From: a virus | Virus record (IMG/VR): IMGVR_UViG_3300028654_000024 | Location: 1-49,553 of that record | Direction: 5' to 3' (one strand) | DNA: 49,553 nt | In this document: positions 2,691-45,322 of the stretch, piece by piece | Numbering within the stretch: the stretch's first letter is position 1 | Layout of the letters: each line of letters opens with the position of its first letter | Made by a program: the position numbers and the translations under genes | Notes under the pieces: generated by a model | The model's input: only the letters and a program-made list of their open reading frames with translations | Database searches by the model: none | What the model was told of the DNA's origin: nothing

Positions 2691-4499
2691 ATGACCACTA
2701 TTAACCCAGTAATTACGCGTACACCTCATGCTGCGGTTCTTATATGGAACTACGATGATAGGCTTGGAGTAGAGGATACTCCAGTTGAAGAGGTTAATAG
2801 CGTTGATGAGCTTCTCATCAGCACGGTTTCCCTTATATCTATCAGTACAAAGAAAAGCAAGGGTGAACCCGTAGGTCGCTTTGAACTTAATCTAGCTCCC
2901 ACTAGAAACTGGGTAAGCGAGATAACCTCTGGAAGCTGGATGGTCATCTTGATGTCTCAGACTCCTATCAGCAGAGCAGATCTTGCTAACGCAAACCCTA
3001 CTCAGGTTAAATTCTTCGGTAAGATCGAATCCGTAAGATTCAATACATCCATTCTTGATCCTGAAAGTGGGGCAAGATCTAGCGGATATACGGTATCAGG
3101 AGTTGATTGGGCTCATATCTTTGAGAACAATGTCTACATCGATCCGTTCATTGAGAAATCAGACAACACCTTTGGTTCTGCTACATACATCGACCTGTTT
3201 GAGAAGGTCATCAATGTAGATAACAGATCTAGCATTGTTTCTGTTAGAGATAACATTAATAACCTTATTCAAGTACTCGGTCAACCTTTCAGTGAAGGTG
3301 TTATCAATCAAAGTAGCACAGTGAACCGAGTTGCTAAGGCAGATTACTCTTTCGCTGTACCTACAGAGGTTCAAAACTACTTCAGTTTCAGCGGTGGCGA
3401 CAACATTGTTAATGCTCTAGAAATAGTAAGCGGAAACCTTACTGACGTAGATATATACAATCCAAACCTACAGGAAGCCTTCGGGTGGATTGATCCTGCC
3501 TCTTTAAGAGGTATCAATACGCTGTGGCAACTTATAGTTGACAACAGCTGTCCTGTACTCAATGAGACCTTCACTGATCTACGTTGGGAACCAGATAATG
3601 ATACTCCAGTACTAGCTCTATATAATCGCATCAAGCCGTTTGTTTACAGACCTCAGAGCGAGACCCAAAAGAGAATTCAGGAAGCTTTAAAGACTGAAAC
3701 GTTTGGGGCAACTCAAGCATCTAAGGTTAATCAACAGAACGAGGCAGATACCGTATTGGCCCAGGTAAAAAATCTCATGTCTCCATATCAACTTTTGAAG
3801 ACATATGATATTCCACTGGGAGAGATCATTGCATTTGACGCTGGTACAAACTGGCGCGATAAGTTTAACTTCGCTGAGATCAAACCGGGTTGGCAGAACG
3901 CAGATCTGTTAGCTAACTGGATTAAGACTATCGCTCAGACTGCAGATGTTAAAGCCTTTCAACGTGAAGGGTTTAGACCTCTCATTATGTCTAGCAAGCA
4001 ATTTCCTACCTTCACCGGTAAGCAAGGTTTTGAACCACAAAACGACCTTGGTATCAACATAAATGTGTTGGCAGGATGGAAACAGCTGTTAAGAGAGTGG
4101 TATTTCGATACCCACAGACTTCTAAACGGGACTATGACCATCATAGGTCAGAATCAGTATATAGATGTTGGATCTAATGTCAGAGTGCCTGCTGATATCT
4201 TAGGTAGAACACCCAACTTCAACTCTGGCGCTCAAGCGAGTGGAACATTTCTTTTATTGCATGTTGAATCAGTGAACCATAGTTTTAGAGTTGATCAAAA
4301 TGGAGCTAGAAATTTCGTTACGACTATTTCTTTTGTAAGGGGCATTGCTGTTACCGCAAACGGTTCTCTTGTTGGAGGAGTTGGTAAGACTGATGATGAA
4401 GCTTCAGATCAAACTAACGCTCAATACAAGAACACCAACAATGTTATCTCAACCTCATCTGCTCTGGATCCTAATCCAGATAAAGCGAACGGTACCTAA
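2691..4499 (+). CDS. Baseplate hub protein (gp27/gpD-like)
   Basis: A 602-residue protein between the tape measure and the spike, where contractile phages carry the hub (T4 gp27, P2 gpD, PBSX XkdQ). The N-terminal third looks like a tail-tube-type beta barrel: a segment near residues 60-100 (GRFELNLAP, WMVILMS) is followed by VKFFGKIESVRFN and YTVSGVDWAHIFENN at about residues 105-145, a pattern typical of hub proteins. The C-terminal part (about 480-560) is also beta-rich. The hub trimer links tail tube to spike. Its TAA overlaps the ATG of the spike gene by one base (TAATG), suggesting translational coupling. I cannot name a specific family. Confidence 0.7.
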   Translation: MTTINPVITRTPHAAVLIWNYDDRLGVEDTPVEEVNSVDELLISTVSLISISTKKSKGEPVGRFELNLAPTRNWVSEITSGSWMVILMSQTPISRADLANANPTQVKFFGKIESVRFNTSILDPESGARSSGYTVSGVDWAHIFENNVYIDPFIEKSDNTFGSATYIDLFEKVINVDNRSSIVSVRDNINNLIQVLGQPFSEGVINQSSTVNRVAKADYSFAVPTEVQNYFSFSGGDNIVNALEIVSGNLTDVDIYNPNLQEAFGWIDPASLRGINTLWQLIVDNSCPVLNETFTDLRWEPDNDTPVLALYNRIKPFVYRPQSETQKRIQEALKTETFGATQASKVNQQNEADTVLAQVKNLMSPYQLLKTYDIPLGEIIAFDAGTNWRDKFNFAEIKPGWQNADLLANWIKTIAQTADVKAFQREGFRPLIMSSKQFPTFTGKQGFEPQNDLGININVLAGWKQLLREWYFDTHRLLNGTMTIIGQNQYIDVGSNVRVPADILGRTPNFNSGAQASGTFLLLHVESVNHSFRVDQNGARNFVTTISFVRGIAVTANGSLVGGVGKTDDEASDQTNAQYKNTNNVISTSSALDPNPDKANGT

Positions 4500-35927: not shown

Positions 35928-36703
35928 TGAAGTACTTTGATCTTCTCAAACCAAACATAGATAAGTTTGGTGTGATCACTCAGAGTGCGGCAGATTCGTG
36001 GGATGGTGGAGACACTATCCAACGAGAAGGTATGTATCTTTGTGCGATGTGGTATCACCTACAAGCTGGTAGAGTATCTCAACAAGATTGGCTAGACGCA
36101 GTTAACCGCTATGACTACATCATCAAACAACTGAACGTTTCTAACGGCTGGTCTCTAAGACGTCACCCCGATTCTTCAATGTGGTATTACGAGCCTAATT
36201 GTATGAGTCGAGATCAACTCACATCTAATCTTGCAGCCCTAGGGTATGGTAATCAGGATGTGTTGTTGCAACTGCTTCTGAAGCACATGATTAGAGTAAT
36301 GCTCTTCACGACGAATACCCGTAACAACGGAGCCTATCCAGGAACGCCAGCATACGCTTGGAAACTACCAGATATCACCTTTTCTTCTATCTGGGGAGCG
36401 TATATTCGCGGTCTAAACTGGAAACTGTTGTGGCCCTTGCTACCTCTGTTCGATTTAGAACTAGTAGTCGACAGCTGTATCATCTTGTATAAAGTGAAAC
36501 AAGATCCTACATTCTGTGACCATCTCAGTCAACAAATGCTTCTATTACAATCACAAGAGCGCATGCCTACTTGGATATCTCGTCTAGCTATGTGGATATA
36601 CAAGAAGGCTGGTCCGCAACAAGCACTAGATCAGTACTTCACTGTTGCGAAATGTGCGCCTGCTATGAACGAAGTTTATAGAGAAATCTGGGCTTCTAAA
36701 TAG
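35927..36703 (+). CDS. Conserved-looking helical protein at the end of the tail module
   Basis: 258 residues, translationally coupled (TAATG) to the fibre protein before it. The sequence is helical and unusually rich in Trp and aromatic residues. Striking segments are DGGDTIQREGMYLCAMWYHL (about 27-46) and MWYYEPNCMSRDQLTSNLAA (about 85-105). They recall helical-barrel (six-hairpin-type) hydrolases or lyases, but no catalytic residues can be assigned with confidence. Its place after the fibres suggests a tail or adsorption-linked function. It ends in TAG, and its 3' end overlaps by 8 bases the end of a convergent gene. Confidence 0.55.
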   Translation: MKYFDLLKPNIDKFGVITQSAADSWDGGDTIQREGMYLCAMWYHLQAGRVSQQDWLDAVNRYDYIIKQLNVSNGWSLRRHPDSSMWYYEPNCMSRDQLTSNLAALGYGNQDVLLQLLLKHMIRVMLFTTNTRNNGAYPGTPAYAWKLPDITFSSIWGAYIRGLNWKLLWPLLPLFDLELVVDSCIILYKVKQDPTFCDHLSQQMLLLQSQERMPTWISRLAMWIYKKAGPQQALDQYFTVAKCAPAMNEVYREIWASK

Positions 36704-42133: not shown

Positions 42134-42711
42134 TGGTTGTCACTTATAATACCTCAGCAGGACAAGTAGCAATCGTGAACGTCATAGAGTTCGCTGAGAT
42201 CCTATACAAACTTAACGAGCATAAGATAAGCGACATTATCGCAACTAATGCTATCGACGTAGCGGTGTTGGGCGTTCAAAAAAAGAAGATCAAAAGAGAA
42301 GAAGACCCAGTTATAGAATTTGTGGTCCTAGAAGACGACATGGTTTTTGGCGGAAGTTCTTTCCAGATCGGCCATGATAGTTCTTATAAGAGAGTTAAAA
42401 TACCTTTAAAAGAAGTAATCCATGACGACATAGTGGCAGCAATTGCTGCACAGATGGTAGAGAAAACTGTTCCATATCAGATGTATAGCGTTCCTCAAGA
42501 TAATCAGGAAGCGTACGAGATCATAGCTATAAACGCTATGGAGAACTTTGTCAACCCTACTCATGTTATCCACATAAAGCCCAACTTAGTTATAGCCGTA
42601 GACATAGATAATTTAAAGTTGAAAGTAATCGACGATAGTGGTACAATAAGGATGGCAGTATATTCAGACAAGGTGTCTGATTGGAAAGCCTTGGAGATTC
42701 CTGTGCGTTAG
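42133..42711 (+). CDS. Hypothetical protein
   Basis: 192 residues, mixed alpha/beta, no family recognised. Visible segments: VIEFAEILYKLNEHKISDII near the N-terminus, VIEFVVLEDDMVFGGSSFQI, and a C-terminal strand set (LVIAVDIDNLKLKVIDDSGT). The start overlaps the previous stop by one base. It ends in TAG and is followed by a 73-base gap with inverted repeats. No signal peptide or membrane helix. Confidence 0.5.
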   Translation: MVVTYNTSAGQVAIVNVIEFAEILYKLNEHKISDIIATNAIDVAVLGVQKKKIKREEDPVIEFVVLEDDMVFGGSSFQIGHDSSYKRVKIPLKEVIHDDIVAAIAAQMVEKTVPYQMYSVPQDNQEAYEIIAINAMENFVNPTHVIHIKPNLVIAVDIDNLKLKVIDDSGTIRMAVYSDKVSDWKALEIPVR

Positions 42712-42734
42712 ATAAGAAAGCCCCCGTAAGTAAA

Positions 42735-42776
42735 CCTAGTTACGTCCGTAAGTGTTCAATAACTTAACTAACTAGG
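42735..42776 (+). promoter_or_regulatory. Leader hairpin able to hide the next ribosome binding site
   Basis: CCTAGTTA (42735-42742) is the exact reverse complement of TAACTAGG (42769-42776), and the latter includes the first bases of the TAGGAG ribosome binding site of the gene at 42785. An inner pair, TAAGT (42749-42753) and ACTTA (42762-42766), would stack inside. A direct repeat CCGTAAGT lies at 42724-42731 and 42746-42753. The fold would block translation initiation until opened. Confidence 0.45.
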
Positions 42777-42784
42777 AGAAATAT

Positions 42785-43390
42785 ATGATCGCTCAGATCA
42801 AAGAAATGTTAACGAAATTCCCCGAACCTACTAAAGAAGAAAAGGCTTTCCGGGAAAAGATGAAGAAGTTTAAGAATATCCTGAAGCAACTCGCTTCCGA
42901 TATTAAGTACCAAAAATCTATACGCAAGCTATCTCATAAGAAGCATGCTCTCTACACAGGGCACATGATTTTGTCTATTAAATACAGACACTTACATGTA
43001 GCCTACTGTCTGCTAAGAGGTCGCACTCTAGAGCAGATTGATAGTGGCAGAGAGCTGAATATGGACTACGTCAACTGGATCGTCCAGATCACCAAGGATG
43101 ACACAAAGGCGAAGCTCTATGTTTGCATCGATGAGAAGCTCTCTGATGCCCAGAAAGCCGTCCAGGGAGCTCACGCGGTCGCTCAGTTTGTCAAGCAGGA
43201 GAAGTACACTCTGTGGGACAACGGGACGCTCGTATTCATCAAAGCTCCAGGTGCTCGCTGTAGCTATAGTGGATGGGCTCTAAGTGAAACTGCTTCCTGG
43301 CGTGAACCCGATATGAACAACGCTAATACTGCTTGTGCATCGTTCGGGCCAACCGCTGAAGGTTACTTCAAGGGGTTCAAATTGGTATAA
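42785..43390 (+). CDS. Possible peptidyl-tRNA hydrolase 2-like protein
   Basis: 201 residues. The first about 95 are basic and helical (a Lys-rich region with REKMKKFKNILKQLA). The C-terminal half resembles Pth2-type proteins: a first strand (KLYVCIDEKLSD) is followed by AQKAVQGAHAVAQFVKQ at about 120-136, where Pth2 carries the K--AQ--HA catalytic helix, then NGTLVFIKAPG. Pth2 releases peptidyl-tRNA. The match is partial and the end departs from the family, so activity is uncertain. TAGGAG ribosome binding site, possibly sequestered by a leader hairpin. The gene is followed directly by the structured RNA region. Confidence 0.5.
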   Translation: MIAQIKEMLTKFPEPTKEEKAFREKMKKFKNILKQLASDIKYQKSIRKLSHKKHALYTGHMILSIKYRHLHVAYCLLRGRTLEQIDSGRELNMDYVNWIVQITKDDTKAKLYVCIDEKLSDAQKAVQGAHAVAQFVKQEKYTLWDNGTLVFIKAPGARCSYSGWALSETASWREPDMNNANTACASFGPTAEGYFKGFKLV

Positions 43391-43396
43391 CAATCA

Positions 43397-43574
43397 TGTG
43401 CAGAAGGTGGATAGATGGCGGAGTTTAATGGCCGAGCCTGGAAGCCACACCGCGGCGTATGTGGATAAAAACTGGACGATGCAACCCACAGCGCATCTCG
43501 AGAAAGCTGACCCTTGTTTGGTCAGTGCGGAGGCCCCTGAGCTGGGAGTAGCGTCCCAGCCTGCACACCTTTTT
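43397..43574 (+). ncRNA. Candidate structured RNA (about 175 nt), sRNA or riboregulator
   Basis: The gap 43391-43576 has no convincing gene, is visibly GC-richer than its surroundings and is full of nested inverted repeats. A closing stem pairs TGTGCAG (43397-43403) with CTGCACA (43561-43567). Inside are GCGG with CCGC, TGGC with GCCA, TGTGG with CCACA, CTGACC with GGTCAG (about 43507-43523), and GCTGGGA with TCCCAGC (43541-43560). An alternative pairing AAGGTG with CACCTT competes with the closing stem. Five T residues follow, so the 3' end could be an intrinsic terminator. It sits directly before a membrane protein gene without a ribosome binding site, so a riboswitch-like leader is also possible. 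No known riboswitch core was recognised. Confidence 0.6.
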
Positions 43575-43576
43575 AT

Positions 43577-43894
43577 ATGTGGTCACTATTTGCTGCTGCC
43601 TCATTATTCTATCTATTCGGGGCGTATATCGCCTACGACGTTGCTATTAAAGCTAGTCCTTGGTTTCTACCTATCGGTATTGTAGTTGGTATAGTTTCAA
43701 ACCTTATTTGGCTCTATGTTACTAAGATAACGACGGACAACAAGGATTTGTTTGTCTATGGTTTAATCTGGGATGTAATGATGATGGCTGCTTACATACT
43801 AGTGCCGTTATTACTTTTTCATGTTAAACTCGATTGGAAACAAACTGTAGGTACAATACTTGTTGTACTCGGATTGATTTTAACGAAACTCTAG
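43577..43894 (+). CDS. Small four-helix membrane protein, SMR/DMT-like
   Basis: 105 residues, almost entirely hydrophobic, with four predicted membrane helices: about 2-22, 28-50, 60-82 and 87-105. Length, helix number and the last helix (LDWKQTVGTILVVLGLILTK) fit small multidrug-resistance-type (DMT) transporters, though the conserved membrane Glu of SMR helix 1 is not seen, so transport is uncertain. A holin-like role is an alternative. An in-frame TGA at 43538 rules out a longer N-terminus. No Shine-Dalgarno lies before the ATG; the candidate structured RNA ends 3 bases upstream. Ends in TAG. Confidence 0.55.
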   Translation: MWSLFAAASLFYLFGAYIAYDVAIKASPWFLPIGIVVGIVSNLIWLYVTKITTDNKDLFVYGLIWDVMMMAAYILVPLLLFHVKLDWKQTVGTILVVLGLILTKL

Positions 43895-43904
43895 GAGAGT
43901 TTAT

Positions 43905-44156
43905 ATGATGTGTGAAGTAGTGTTGGCCCTTCTTGTTACTTATTCTGATGGTCATGTTGAGAAGGTTCAGCGTCAAGGTGCTCGACTAGAGAATGTTAAG
44001 CAAGCTCAAGATGCAGTTGCTCAGCTCAAAGCTAACCCTGATTTTCAAGCTGAGATGATCAAAGAAGGTATCGCTAACGTCGAACTCGAAGTTAAGAAGA
44101 TGCCGAAGCCGTTTGATTGCTCGCAAGATCCTGAGAAAGCACCAGAAGGTAAATAA
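43905..44156 (+). CDS. Small hypothetical protein
   Basis: 83 residues with GGAGAG ribosome binding site. The N-terminus (MMCEVVLALLVTYSDGHVEK) forms a beta hairpin; the rest is a helix (NVKQAQDAVAQLKANPDFQA) and a Pro/Lys-rich tail. No family recognised. The TAA is followed directly by the ATG of the endonuclease gene, so the pair is probably co-translated. Confidence 0.5.
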   Translation: MMCEVVLALLVTYSDGHVEKVQRQGARLENVKQAQDAVAQLKANPDFQAEMIKEGIANVELEVKKMPKPFDCSQDPEKAPEGK

Positions 44157-44573
44157 ATGATTTGCAAGTCTTGCAAGTTAGATTTACCTGTAGATCAGTT
44201 TGGAACTTACTTAGTTAAGGGAAGAATTAAAAGATCTCGCCGTAAATCCTGCAAGACCTGTCGAGTCAAAGAAGAAAAAGTTAGATATGCTAACGACCCT
44301 GAGTTAGTTAAAAGAAAGAAACTTGCAGTTAGAAAAAGCGTATTTAAGAACCAGTATGGAATAACGCCAGAACAATACGATCAGATGTTTCTTTCCCAGA
44401 ACGGTAAATGTAGAATCTGTAAAAGAGTTTCTGATAAGCGGCTTAACGTAGATCACTGCCACAATACCGGCAAAATTAGAGGTCTACTCTGTTGGAATTG
44501 TAATATAGGTATTGGTTATATGAAACACAATATTGAGATACTGAAGACTGCGGTCGAATATCTCGGAGGGTAA
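44157..44573 (+). CDS. Endonuclease VII-like HNH nuclease
   Basis: 138 residues. An N-terminal zinc motif (CKSCKLDLPVDQFG; later CKTC) precedes the endonuclease VII core: YGITPEQYDQMFLSQNGKC, then CRICKR, LNVDHCHNTGKIRGLLC, WNCNIGIGYMKHN. The DHCHNTGKIRGLLC segment with flanking Cys pairs is the His-Me finger with its zinc site. T4 gp49 (157 residues) resolves four-way junctions before packaging; the same core also occurs in free-standing homing nucleases, so a mobile HNH gene cannot be excluded. The ATG directly follows the previous TAA. Confidence 0.85.
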   Translation: MICKSCKLDLPVDQFGTYLVKGRIKRSRRKSCKTCRVKEEKVRYANDPELVKRKKLAVRKSVFKNQYGITPEQYDQMFLSQNGKCRICKRVSDKRLNVDHCHNTGKIRGLLCWNCNIGIGYMKHNIEILKTAVEYLGG

Positions 44574-44577
44574 ATCT

Positions 44578-44952
44578 ATCACTTCCCGCGACTTTTGTTA
44601 TTGGCTTCAAGGTTTTATTGAAGTCGGACAACCTCATATTGTCACTATGGAACAGCTCGCAACGATAAGAAACCATTTGAACATGGTCTTCAGACACGAG
44701 ATCGATCCATCACACGGAAATCCAGAATACGTAGAAATCTTACGTAAGATCCATGAGGGCGAACTACCTAAGCCAGAACTCTTCTGCGCTGATAAGTCCG
44801 CTGACACACTCGAGAAACGTTCTCCTGAACAATATCCAGATGGAGCTCCGGTAGAACTGCCTGCAGCTCTCGCTGGAATCCTTCCCGCCGACTGGCTTGC
44901 CAAACTACCTAAGGGTGGTGGTGACGGTTTCGGCGGAGCTATGAACTGCTAA
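44578..44952 (+). CDS. Conserved phage protein (SRDFCYWLQGF family) with apparent ATC start
   Basis: 124 residues if begun at ATC 44578. The first conserved motif, TSRDFCYWLQGFIEV, lies before the first ATG (44647) and is followed by HLNMVFRHEIDP; in related phage proteins as I recall them the motif starts right after the initiator Met. No ATG, GTG or TTG exists between the in-frame TGA at 44542 and 44647; the only alternatives are CTG at 44548 (no ribosome binding site) and ATC at 44560. ATC at 44578 has GGAGG 8 bases upstream and sits where the family Met would be. The C-terminus ends in a Gly-rich tail (PKGGGDGFGGAMNC). Function unknown. A sequencing error at the start cannot be excluded. 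Confidence 0.7.
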   Translation: MTSRDFCYWLQGFIEVGQPHIVTMEQLATIRNHLNMVFRHEIDPSHGNPEYVEILRKIHEGELPKPELFCADKSADTLEKRSPEQYPDGAPVELPAALAGILPADWLAKLPKGGGDGFGGAMNC

Positions 44953-44962
44953 TTCTTTCAAT

Positions 44963-45039
44963 GCGTCTATAACTCAGCGGCAGAGTGGTCCGCCTCTAAA
45001 ACGGTACCGACGGGGGTTCGAGTCCCTCTAGACGCTCCA
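44963..45039 (+). tRNA. tRNA, candidate amber suppressor (anticodon CTA)
   Basis: Acceptor stem GCGTCTA (44963-44969) pairs perfectly with TAGACGC (45029-45035), followed by T and an encoded CCA (45037-45039). D arm ACTC-AGCGGCA-GAGT and T arm GGGGG-TTCGAGT-CCCTC are good. The anticodon arm is poor: TCCGC and ACGGT pair in the middle but mismatch at both ends (or pair with one bulge). The only loop with T33 is CTCTAAA (44994-45000), giving anticodon CTA, the same loop as supF. A strict count instead gives TCT (Arg) with C33 and no stem. Two extra bases relative to a standard tRNA are present. The amino acid cannot be deduced. Confidence 0.75.
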
Positions 45040-45091
45040 TATCCAACCTTACTCAATTAAAGTTATATAAGAAAAGCCTTATCCAACCTTA
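45040..45091 (+). repeat. Direct repeat TATCCAACCTTA
   Basis: TATCCAACCTTA occurs at 45040-45051 and again at 45080-45091, 40 bases apart, directly after the tRNA. The first copy touches the CCA end. They may be remnants of a deleted tRNA or duplicated tRNA-processing sequences, or sites for a regulator. The surrounding bases show no gene. Confidence 0.5.
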
Positions 45092-45150
45092 GCCTTTTGG
45101 AGATGGCCCTATTTATTCCTGAGCCCTATAATCTCTGCCCGCACCCTACC

Positions 45151-45190
45151 CGCGCGTGAAACGCGCGCAATGTACGCGTACTCGCGTACA
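45151..45190. promoter_or_regulatory. Two adjacent perfect hairpins in the 370-base non-coding gap
   Basis: CGCGCGT and ACGCGCG (45151-45167) pair with a 3-base loop. TGTACGCG and CGCGTACA (45171-45190) pair with a 4-base loop. Only 3 bases separate them. They are far richer in CpG than the rest of the region, with a TATAAT at 45127-45132 just upstream. The gap 44953-45322 otherwise holds the tRNA and AT-rich sequence without a gene. A terminator, transcript-stabilising element or protein-binding site is possible; no U-tract follows. Confidence 0.5.
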
Positions 45191-45322
45191 GAGCTTAGTA
45201 GTAGAGATAGTTAGGTTTGGGTGGATAAAAGATCTTATACACAAGAGACATGAAAAACTTACACGGTTTTGAAAATAAATATCACGCCACTCTACTAGGA
45301 TCTATCTCAGTATAACCAACGA

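Follow-up and report, generated by a model that had tools for sequence, protein, structure and literature searches.

Phage T4 carries two small late RNAs, RNAC and RNAD (139 and 119 nt), that adjoin its tRNAs and whose function is left unassigned in the parts of PMC3014915 and PMC9697503 that treat them. Structured RNAs also stand beside the suppressor tRNAs of recoded phages, namely the theta ribozymes, and PMC10879173 calls the trigger of the stop-codon recoding switch poorly understood.

Here we analyze a 49.5-kb virus fragment (IMG/VR record IMGVR_UViG_3300028654_000024, whose full 49,553 nucleotides we call the window) in which a folded element lies between a PTH2-like gene (peptidyl-tRNA hydrolase II fold) and a tRNA of amber suppressor type. 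The product of this stretch is most likely a small folded RNA that belongs to a fast-changing and previously uncatalogued kind, and relatives in other phages establish such RNAs as real. We found no published report of this RNA family in the literature searched, which omits most subscription journals.

The element and its neighbors

The features of the locus are as follows.

42785..43390, plus strand: PTH2-like gene with an extra helical N-terminal part (family profile and predicted fold)
43386..43391, plus strand: promoter-like box TATAAC, which overlaps the stop codon of PTH2 and lies 6 nt upstream of G43398
43398..43569, plus strand: candidate structured RNA (5' end placed by the promoter box, 3' end approximate)
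43397..43403, plus strand: 5' strand of the closing stem P1, pairing with 43561-43567 (pair probability 0.73-1.0)
43561..43567, plus strand: 3' strand of P1 (same basis; P1 covaries in relatives)
43406..43451, plus strand: possible first arm, GGUG (43406-43409) with CACC (43448-43451), from a constrained fold
43409..43417, plus strand: GGAUAGAUG, counterpart of the relatives' hairpin-loop motif GGAUAGACG, offset 5 nt past P1 versus 6 nt
43506..43526, plus strand: internal hairpin GCUGACC-CUUGUUU-GGUCAGU (pair probability 0.91-1.0)
43541..43560, plus strand: P6 hairpin GCUGGGA-GUAGCG-UCCCAGC, abutting P1 with zero spacer (probability 0.80-0.83) and aligned to the model P6
43570..43574, plus strand: T5 run after the RNA (from the sequence), unconserved in relatives
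43577..43894, plus strand: gene for a 105-aa membrane protein, right after the RNA, with no Shine-Dalgarno
44963..45039, plus strand: tRNA with a CUA anticodon (amber suppressor type), from a tRNA search

The upstream gene is PTH2-like, as judged from its family profile and predicted fold. Profile PF01981 matches 16 of the 32 aligned members (best E 3.8e-6) and does not match the window's own copy, and a sequence profile of the protein found no match in the PDB. The predicted fold has a mean pLDDT of 90.6, and its best solved matches are 1q7s, 1rlk and 2zv3, which we take to be PTH2 enzymes; only 1q7s falls below E 0.001. In two related loci, the helical N-terminal part appears as a separate overlapping ORF (L004 4343-4958 and L005 6468-7044; L numbers denote the loci collected below).

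Downstream, the interval between the membrane protein gene and the tRNA holds an 83-aa ORF, an endonuclease VII gene and a 101-aa ORF. The search program labels the tRNA tRNA-Pyl, presumably because of the CUA anticodon alone. In 52 of the 57 loci examined, a set picked from a larger one and made up mostly of closer relatives, a CUA tRNA lies within 2.5 kb after PTH2, and the RNA of the window sits in the same interval (42785-43390, 43398-43569 and 44963-45039 for gene, RNA and tRNA). Between the CUA tRNA and the next gene, the window also has tandem GC-rich hairpins (45145-45195) followed by a partly conserved GTGGATA; comparable tandem hairpins of varying sequence occur in L004, L020, L024, L034 and L192. 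Separately, four of five TAG-ended ORFs of the window (those ending at 36703, 42711, 46402 and 48394) have a further stop 5-9 codons on, and these second stops look like a guard against amber read-through.

The preliminary description of this stretch proposed a GC-rich, closed multi-branch structure with a 7-bp closing stem, at least four internal stems and a terminal T5 run, ahead of a gene with no ribosome binding site. On re-examination, the closing stem and the T5 run are present, GC content is 52-58% per 50-base block versus 43.7% window-wide, the ATG at 43577 has no Shine-Dalgarno, and the internal stems comprise two robust hairpins (43506-43526 and 43541-43560) along with weaker ones. 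A first arm is also possible, for which the constrained fold gives -57.4 versus -62.2 kcal/mol and the minimum free energy (MFE) fold favors a shifted GUGG/CCAC pairing. Folding energy is unexceptional (-62.3 kcal/mol versus -58.3 ± 4.0 in 200 shuffles, z -1.0; 34 shuffles equal it); because the fold is no stabler than its shuffles, energy is no proof of function.

The search against Rfam at gathering and lenient thresholds yielded tRNA only, plus a chance ToxI match at E 4.1; no riboswitch family model matched, in agreement with the earlier remark that no known riboswitch core could be recognized. No model match was obtained for a theta ribozyme, a T-box or a group I/II intron. A tRNA or intron-bearing tRNA within the element was likewise rejected, with no ARAGORN or Rfam tRNA match, and lowered tRNA thresholds on the plus strand gave no ordinary tRNA, only metazoan-mitochondrial-type and intron-type noise. 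By nucleotide similarity, the element had no match in phage and plasmid collections, and its relative in L021 had none in phages. A 15-base match between the RNA of the window and the tRNA-Glu of phage LR756511 was non-significant (E 0.12) and was dropped.

A covarying RNA family in related phages

Relatives were collected through helicase and PTH2 searches of viral contigs, which gave overlapping sets of 12, 80 and 74 loci; a scan of genome contigs turned up two distant PTH2 relatives. In close relatives, RNA-like sequence occupies the spot after PTH2 and before the CUA tRNA. Seven independent copies (L017, L018, L019, L021, L024, L030 and L033), which we call class A, have a common sequence and a seven-helix structure. 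In their alignment (A5), 95.6% of 252 cells are paired, versus 82.6 when shuffled, and 21 of the 36 pairs have changed on both sides, versus 8.4 ± 2.0 in shuffled alignments, none of 500 being as high. When partners were slid by 1-3 columns, at most four pairs changed on both sides. The structure had been hand-drawn from a single member of the alignment, which gives it an advantage in this sliding control; for P1, P3, P5 and P6, the changes on both sides are independent of that drawing. The early hairpin P2 is invariant in class A and therefore uninformative on covariation. In all, 63 positions are invariant, and long unpaired stretches are kept.

The preliminary description had made its proposal depend on covariation in homologues, on the lack of an Rfam match and on the region not being translated. 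For the family, covariation is strong in the seven copies, and none of the class-A RNAs matched Rfam, tRNA being the only family that matched in those searches. Translation is disfavored by the relatives: the window element has one open reading frame (4, 0 and 2 stops per frame), and five of the nine relatives counted lack any fully open frame.

A covariance model of class A (R1) finds exactly one copy in each of 7 records out of 18. Run unfiltered, it detects two more RNAs, in L029 (22.0 bits, E 2.6e-4) and in L034 (14.8 bits, E 0.02); both match through the closing stem, the 3' hairpin and an early hairpin whose loop is of the GGANAGACG type. In a motif scan of viral contigs (best 80 of 95 stretches), those with an extra mark of the family were phages already known, so class A seems limited to this phage group.

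The preliminary description had left two readings standing: a phage RNA that stands on its own, or a leader acting as a switch for the following gene. The former is supported by the related RNAs at the same spot, their strong covariation and the absence of an Rfam match. The latter, a cis-acting leader (riboswitch or translational switch) of the membrane protein gene, we judge unlikely. It draws on the T5 run of the window and on start codons at most about 15 nt past the stem without a Shine-Dalgarno in the window, L017, L019, L021, L022, L027 and L032. However, ORFs right behind plain tRNAs in these phages also have no Shine-Dalgarno, so its absence is no mark of a switch, and a U-run of at least five directly after the RNA occurs only in the window and L004. 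In addition, Rfam holds no known riboswitch family model for the element, and the RNA is independent of any single downstream gene. The following feature varies between a tiny membrane protein of about 45 aa (L017, L019, L021, L022, L024, L027, L028 and L032), the CUA tRNA (L018, L020, L030, L192, L084 and L004), other sequence (L029, L033 and L034) and, in some phages, another RNA. Class-A RNAs directly precede the tRNA in L018 and L030, and the L024 RNA precedes a gene with its own Shine-Dalgarno-like AAAGGA. When used as a query, the window's membrane protein matched no viral contig and a single phage record, LR756511, where its homologue sits behind a plain tRNA-Glu rather than such an RNA. 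Because the RNA follows a TATAA box while the features after it differ, we favor a free-standing RNA over a leader switch.

A wider family with the spacing of a tRNA

A second model (R2), built from nine RNAs (class A plus L029 and L034), finds a further RNA on the opposite strand in L028 (18.1 bits, E 0.0047) and, weakly, one in L022 (11.8 bits, E 0.23). Both are again preceded by a TATAA box, and the gene that follows them is a different one.

L028 363-547 and L022 525-672, minus strand (opposite to PTH2): second-locus RNAs with the same frame, with matches also in L020 and L052 (R2 and frame scan)

The second-locus RNA of L028 adjoins the start of a UvsW-like helicase gene and is itself followed by CAATTTTATG and an ORF.

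Across the related loci, the TATAA box lies 10-12 nt ahead of the RNA, counted from its first T to the first base of the stem. We scanned for this frame as TATAA, 9-14 nt, a closing stem of at least 6 bp and a hairpin abutting the 3' strand of the stem, excluding L001, L012, L023, L025, L026, L031 and L244-L247 as duplicates, leaving out L096-L190 and counting identical matches once. The frame was found at 23 of 5,453 boxes in the loci scanned versus 3 of 4,996 in shuffled sequence, and at 11 versus 0 when the early hairpin was required; one of these 11, L027, seems to be a false match, and among the 12 that lack the early hairpin, several fall within what appears to be coding sequence. In the remaining 10 copies with all three helices, the closing stem and early hairpin are 2 nt apart in nine, and the 3' hairpin abuts the closing stem (0 nt) in nine. 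These gaps are the spacing of the acceptor stem, D arm and T arm in tRNA, and R1 weakly matches plain tRNAs through the same closing-stem and hairpin frame. No canonical UUCRA T-loop was found in the 3' hairpin, and CCA directly follows the stem in only a few copies (GCCA in L004, ACCA in L032).

RNA-like closed elements of 51-220 nt also follow PTH2 in L020, L022, L027, L028, L032, L192, L084 and L004. These eight, known by inspection and folds and lying outside the covariation test, are not linked to class A by R1 or R2, with the sole exception of a weak R2 match in L032 (4179-4401, E 0.37). An element of about 220 nt may be common to L028 (about 155-374 past the PTH2 stop) and L032 (about 4179-4401), with common stretches including GCGGCGUGGA and GAGACACG and no Rfam match at the gathering threshold. 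In L016 and L036, the tRNA comes directly after PTH2 with no RNA between them; the RNA is thus dispensable for some phages of the group, and the spot behaves like a site of exchangeable RNAs.

The RNA could also be read as capping or spacing the 5' end of the suppressor-tRNA transcript: any stable closed structure that begins with the first transcribed base would protect and space the precursor and have no function in trans. The highly varied size and interior of the elements ahead of tRNAs (51-220 nt), the fixed distance from promoter box to stem and the absence of the RNA from some phages are all compatible with such a spacer. However, the 63 invariant positions and long unpaired sequence of class A are more than a spacer requires, and same-frame RNAs stand at a second locus (L022, L028, L020 and L052); we therefore regard this account as possible but doubtful.

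Upstream of the PTH2 leader described below, L017-L022, L024, L027, L028, L032 and L034 carry tRNA-like genes (for example, L032 2806-2898) whose acceptor, D and T arms look normal and which have CCA. Their anticodon arm is enlarged or capped by a tetraloop (GCAA in L024, GAAA in L032), so they are probably non-decoding. None was seen in the window.

The copy in the window

The RNA of the window has the outer parts of the frame, with a TATAA box 10-12 nt ahead of the closing stem and a 3'-abutting hairpin. Its box at 43386 is the only one of 96 TATAA boxes on both strands to have a closing stem and abutting 3' hairpin at the right distance; in shuffled windows, 12 of 2,582 boxes pass the same test. 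The P1 sequence, UGUGCAG/CUGCACA, is identical to the closing stems of L033 and L029, and the motif GGAUAGAYG, in the form GGAUAGAUG, is common to the window and its relatives. The early 5-bp hairpin with a GAUAGA-type loop is unformed in the window, although GGAUAGAUG sits at 43409.

Model scores are weak. R1 with default filters did not match; unfiltered, its best match in 43300-43700 (401 bases) is 43396-43568 (6.6 bits, E 0.019), and the best unfiltered R2 match in 42600-45300 (2,701 bases) is the same stretch (9.2 bits, E 0.065). Both alignments involve the closing stem and 3' hairpin only. Because a whole-length match to the family model was not obtained, we term the RNA frame-sharing rather than a class-A member: it has the box, closing stem, 3' hairpin and GGAUAGAYG in common with the family and an interior unlike that of any relative. 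From these sequence features, it is probably a diverged copy.

We consider it distinctly unlikely that the window element is instead unrelated to the family and its fold a chance product of a GC-rich spacer. Its ordinary folding energy (MFE z -1.0), low model scores and unfamiliar interior would all be expected of such a fold, but the spacing of box and stem is exact at the expected spot, which singles out one of the 96 boxes, and the sequence of the closing stem and the GGAUAGAYG motif recur in relatives.

A probable amber-gated leader before PTH2

The PTH2-like gene is itself preceded by a short reading frame and a pairing element.

42703..42729, plus strand: PTH2 leader GTG CGT TAG ATA AGA AAG CCC CCG TAA (amber codon, three codons, Pro-Pro-stop)
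42735..42742, plus strand: CCTAGTTA, pairing with TAACTAGG at 42769-42776 and masking part of the PTH2 Shine-Dalgarno AGGAG (42774-42778)

The same pattern (amber codon, then 2-5 further codons and Pro-Pro-stop, close to the PTH2 start) occurs in 45 of 96 loci examined, with the window as an extra case; the search covered the 450 nt upstream and the 250 nt downstream of the point where the match begins. Its carriers include L016-L022, L024, L027-L030, L032, L034, L036, L052, L084 and L192, and the unit is doubled in L050, L056 and L059. Most of the 51 loci that lack it are distant relatives. Elsewhere, the pattern appears 21 times over 1.78 million bases from other loci, some of them belonging to the same phages. 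Pooled over 19 leaders, the stems between leader end and Shine-Dalgarno are longer than in shuffled sequence (chi-square 69.3, 38 degrees of freedom, the phages being related and so non-independent); singly, most are non-significant, including that of the window (p 0.10).

The passages of PMC3834316 that bear on this point report that Pro-Pro before a stop interferes with termination in E. coli. Amber suppression would let ribosomes reach the Pro-Pro stall and thereby free PTH2 translation, and from its sequence the leader is probably an attenuator or switch of PTH2 gated by amber suppression. We found no published phage leader of this amber/Pro-Pro type in the literature searched.

A proposed role in trans

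On balance, we lean slightly toward the reading that the element is a free-standing, diverged RNA of this family, made from its own promoter, framed like a tRNA and acting in trans. The small structured RNA would be driven by a TATAA-type promoter located where the PTH2-like gene ends, and would be the first product of a transcription unit also bearing the amber suppressor tRNA. The family conserves a frame (closing stem, early hairpin and a 3' hairpin stacked on the closing stem) around a fast-changing interior, with the spacing of a tRNA cloverleaf and a domain of about 100 nt in place of the anticodon arm. The tRNA-like frame, the PTH2 and tRNA neighbors and the variable interior lead us to suggest that such a tRNA-shaped RNA may act on the translation or tRNA-handling machinery. 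It might, for example, serve as a decoy that draws off host enzymes involved in attacking or processing tRNAs; taken alone, this role is rather doubtful, and it would account for a constant frame with a variable interior.

We also raise, speculatively, a broader picture that we think doubtful as it stands, in which large phages that have amber suppressor tRNAs would carry a translation-control module that combines an amber-gated PTH2 hydrolase with own-promoter, tRNA-framed RNAs of exchangeable interior. These RNAs would engage host tRNA-handling or tRNA-attacking enzymes at the time when the suppressor tRNA alters the code, the RNA of the window being exchangeable cargo. Together, the RNA family and the probable amber-gated leader offer a testable picture of how such phages might detect and handle the conversion of a stop codon into a sense codon.

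Comparison with known systems

The position of the RNA beside a suppressor tRNA recalls the theta ribozymes, and a self-cleaving, HDV-like ribozyme that matures the tRNA would be one explanation of the element. Theta ribozymes, as described in the part of PMC10879173 concerned with them, also adjoin phage suppressor tRNAs, but they lie at the tRNA 3' end, cleave themselves and have another topology, whereas the RNA here is upstream. Rfam searches that allowed E values up to 10 gave no match to an HDV family. The seven bases at the start of the RNA pair with the seven at its end, unlike the double-pseudoknot order of HDV ribozymes, and we consider this explanation highly improbable.

T4 RNAC and RNAD are the nearest known kind. 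In RNAC, a hairpin abuts a strand of the outer stem, as P6 does on P1 here, but that hairpin has a canonical T-loop, UUCGAAU, which is absent from the RNAs described here. The T4 region (L191) matches neither R1 nor R2, and the T4 stretch examined has no PTH2 gene or CUA tRNA.

The likeness to tRNA lies in the order of closing stem, 2 nt, hairpin, a variable stretch, 5-bp hairpin, 0 nt and closing stem; the RNAs differ from tRNA in having no ordinary anticodon arm or canonical T-loop and an unconserved CCA, and they are not detected as tRNA. What emerges is a family of structured RNAs that shows strong covariation, matches nothing in Rfam and is tied to phages carrying amber suppressor tRNAs. 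Its tRNA-like frame, variable interior, promoter box and defined genomic partners provide a comparative handle on the old, unexplained small RNAs of phages such as RNAC and RNAD. Judged by sequence and predicted structure, it is a new RNA family of the RNAC/RNAD kind, of which the copy in the window is probably a diverged relative.
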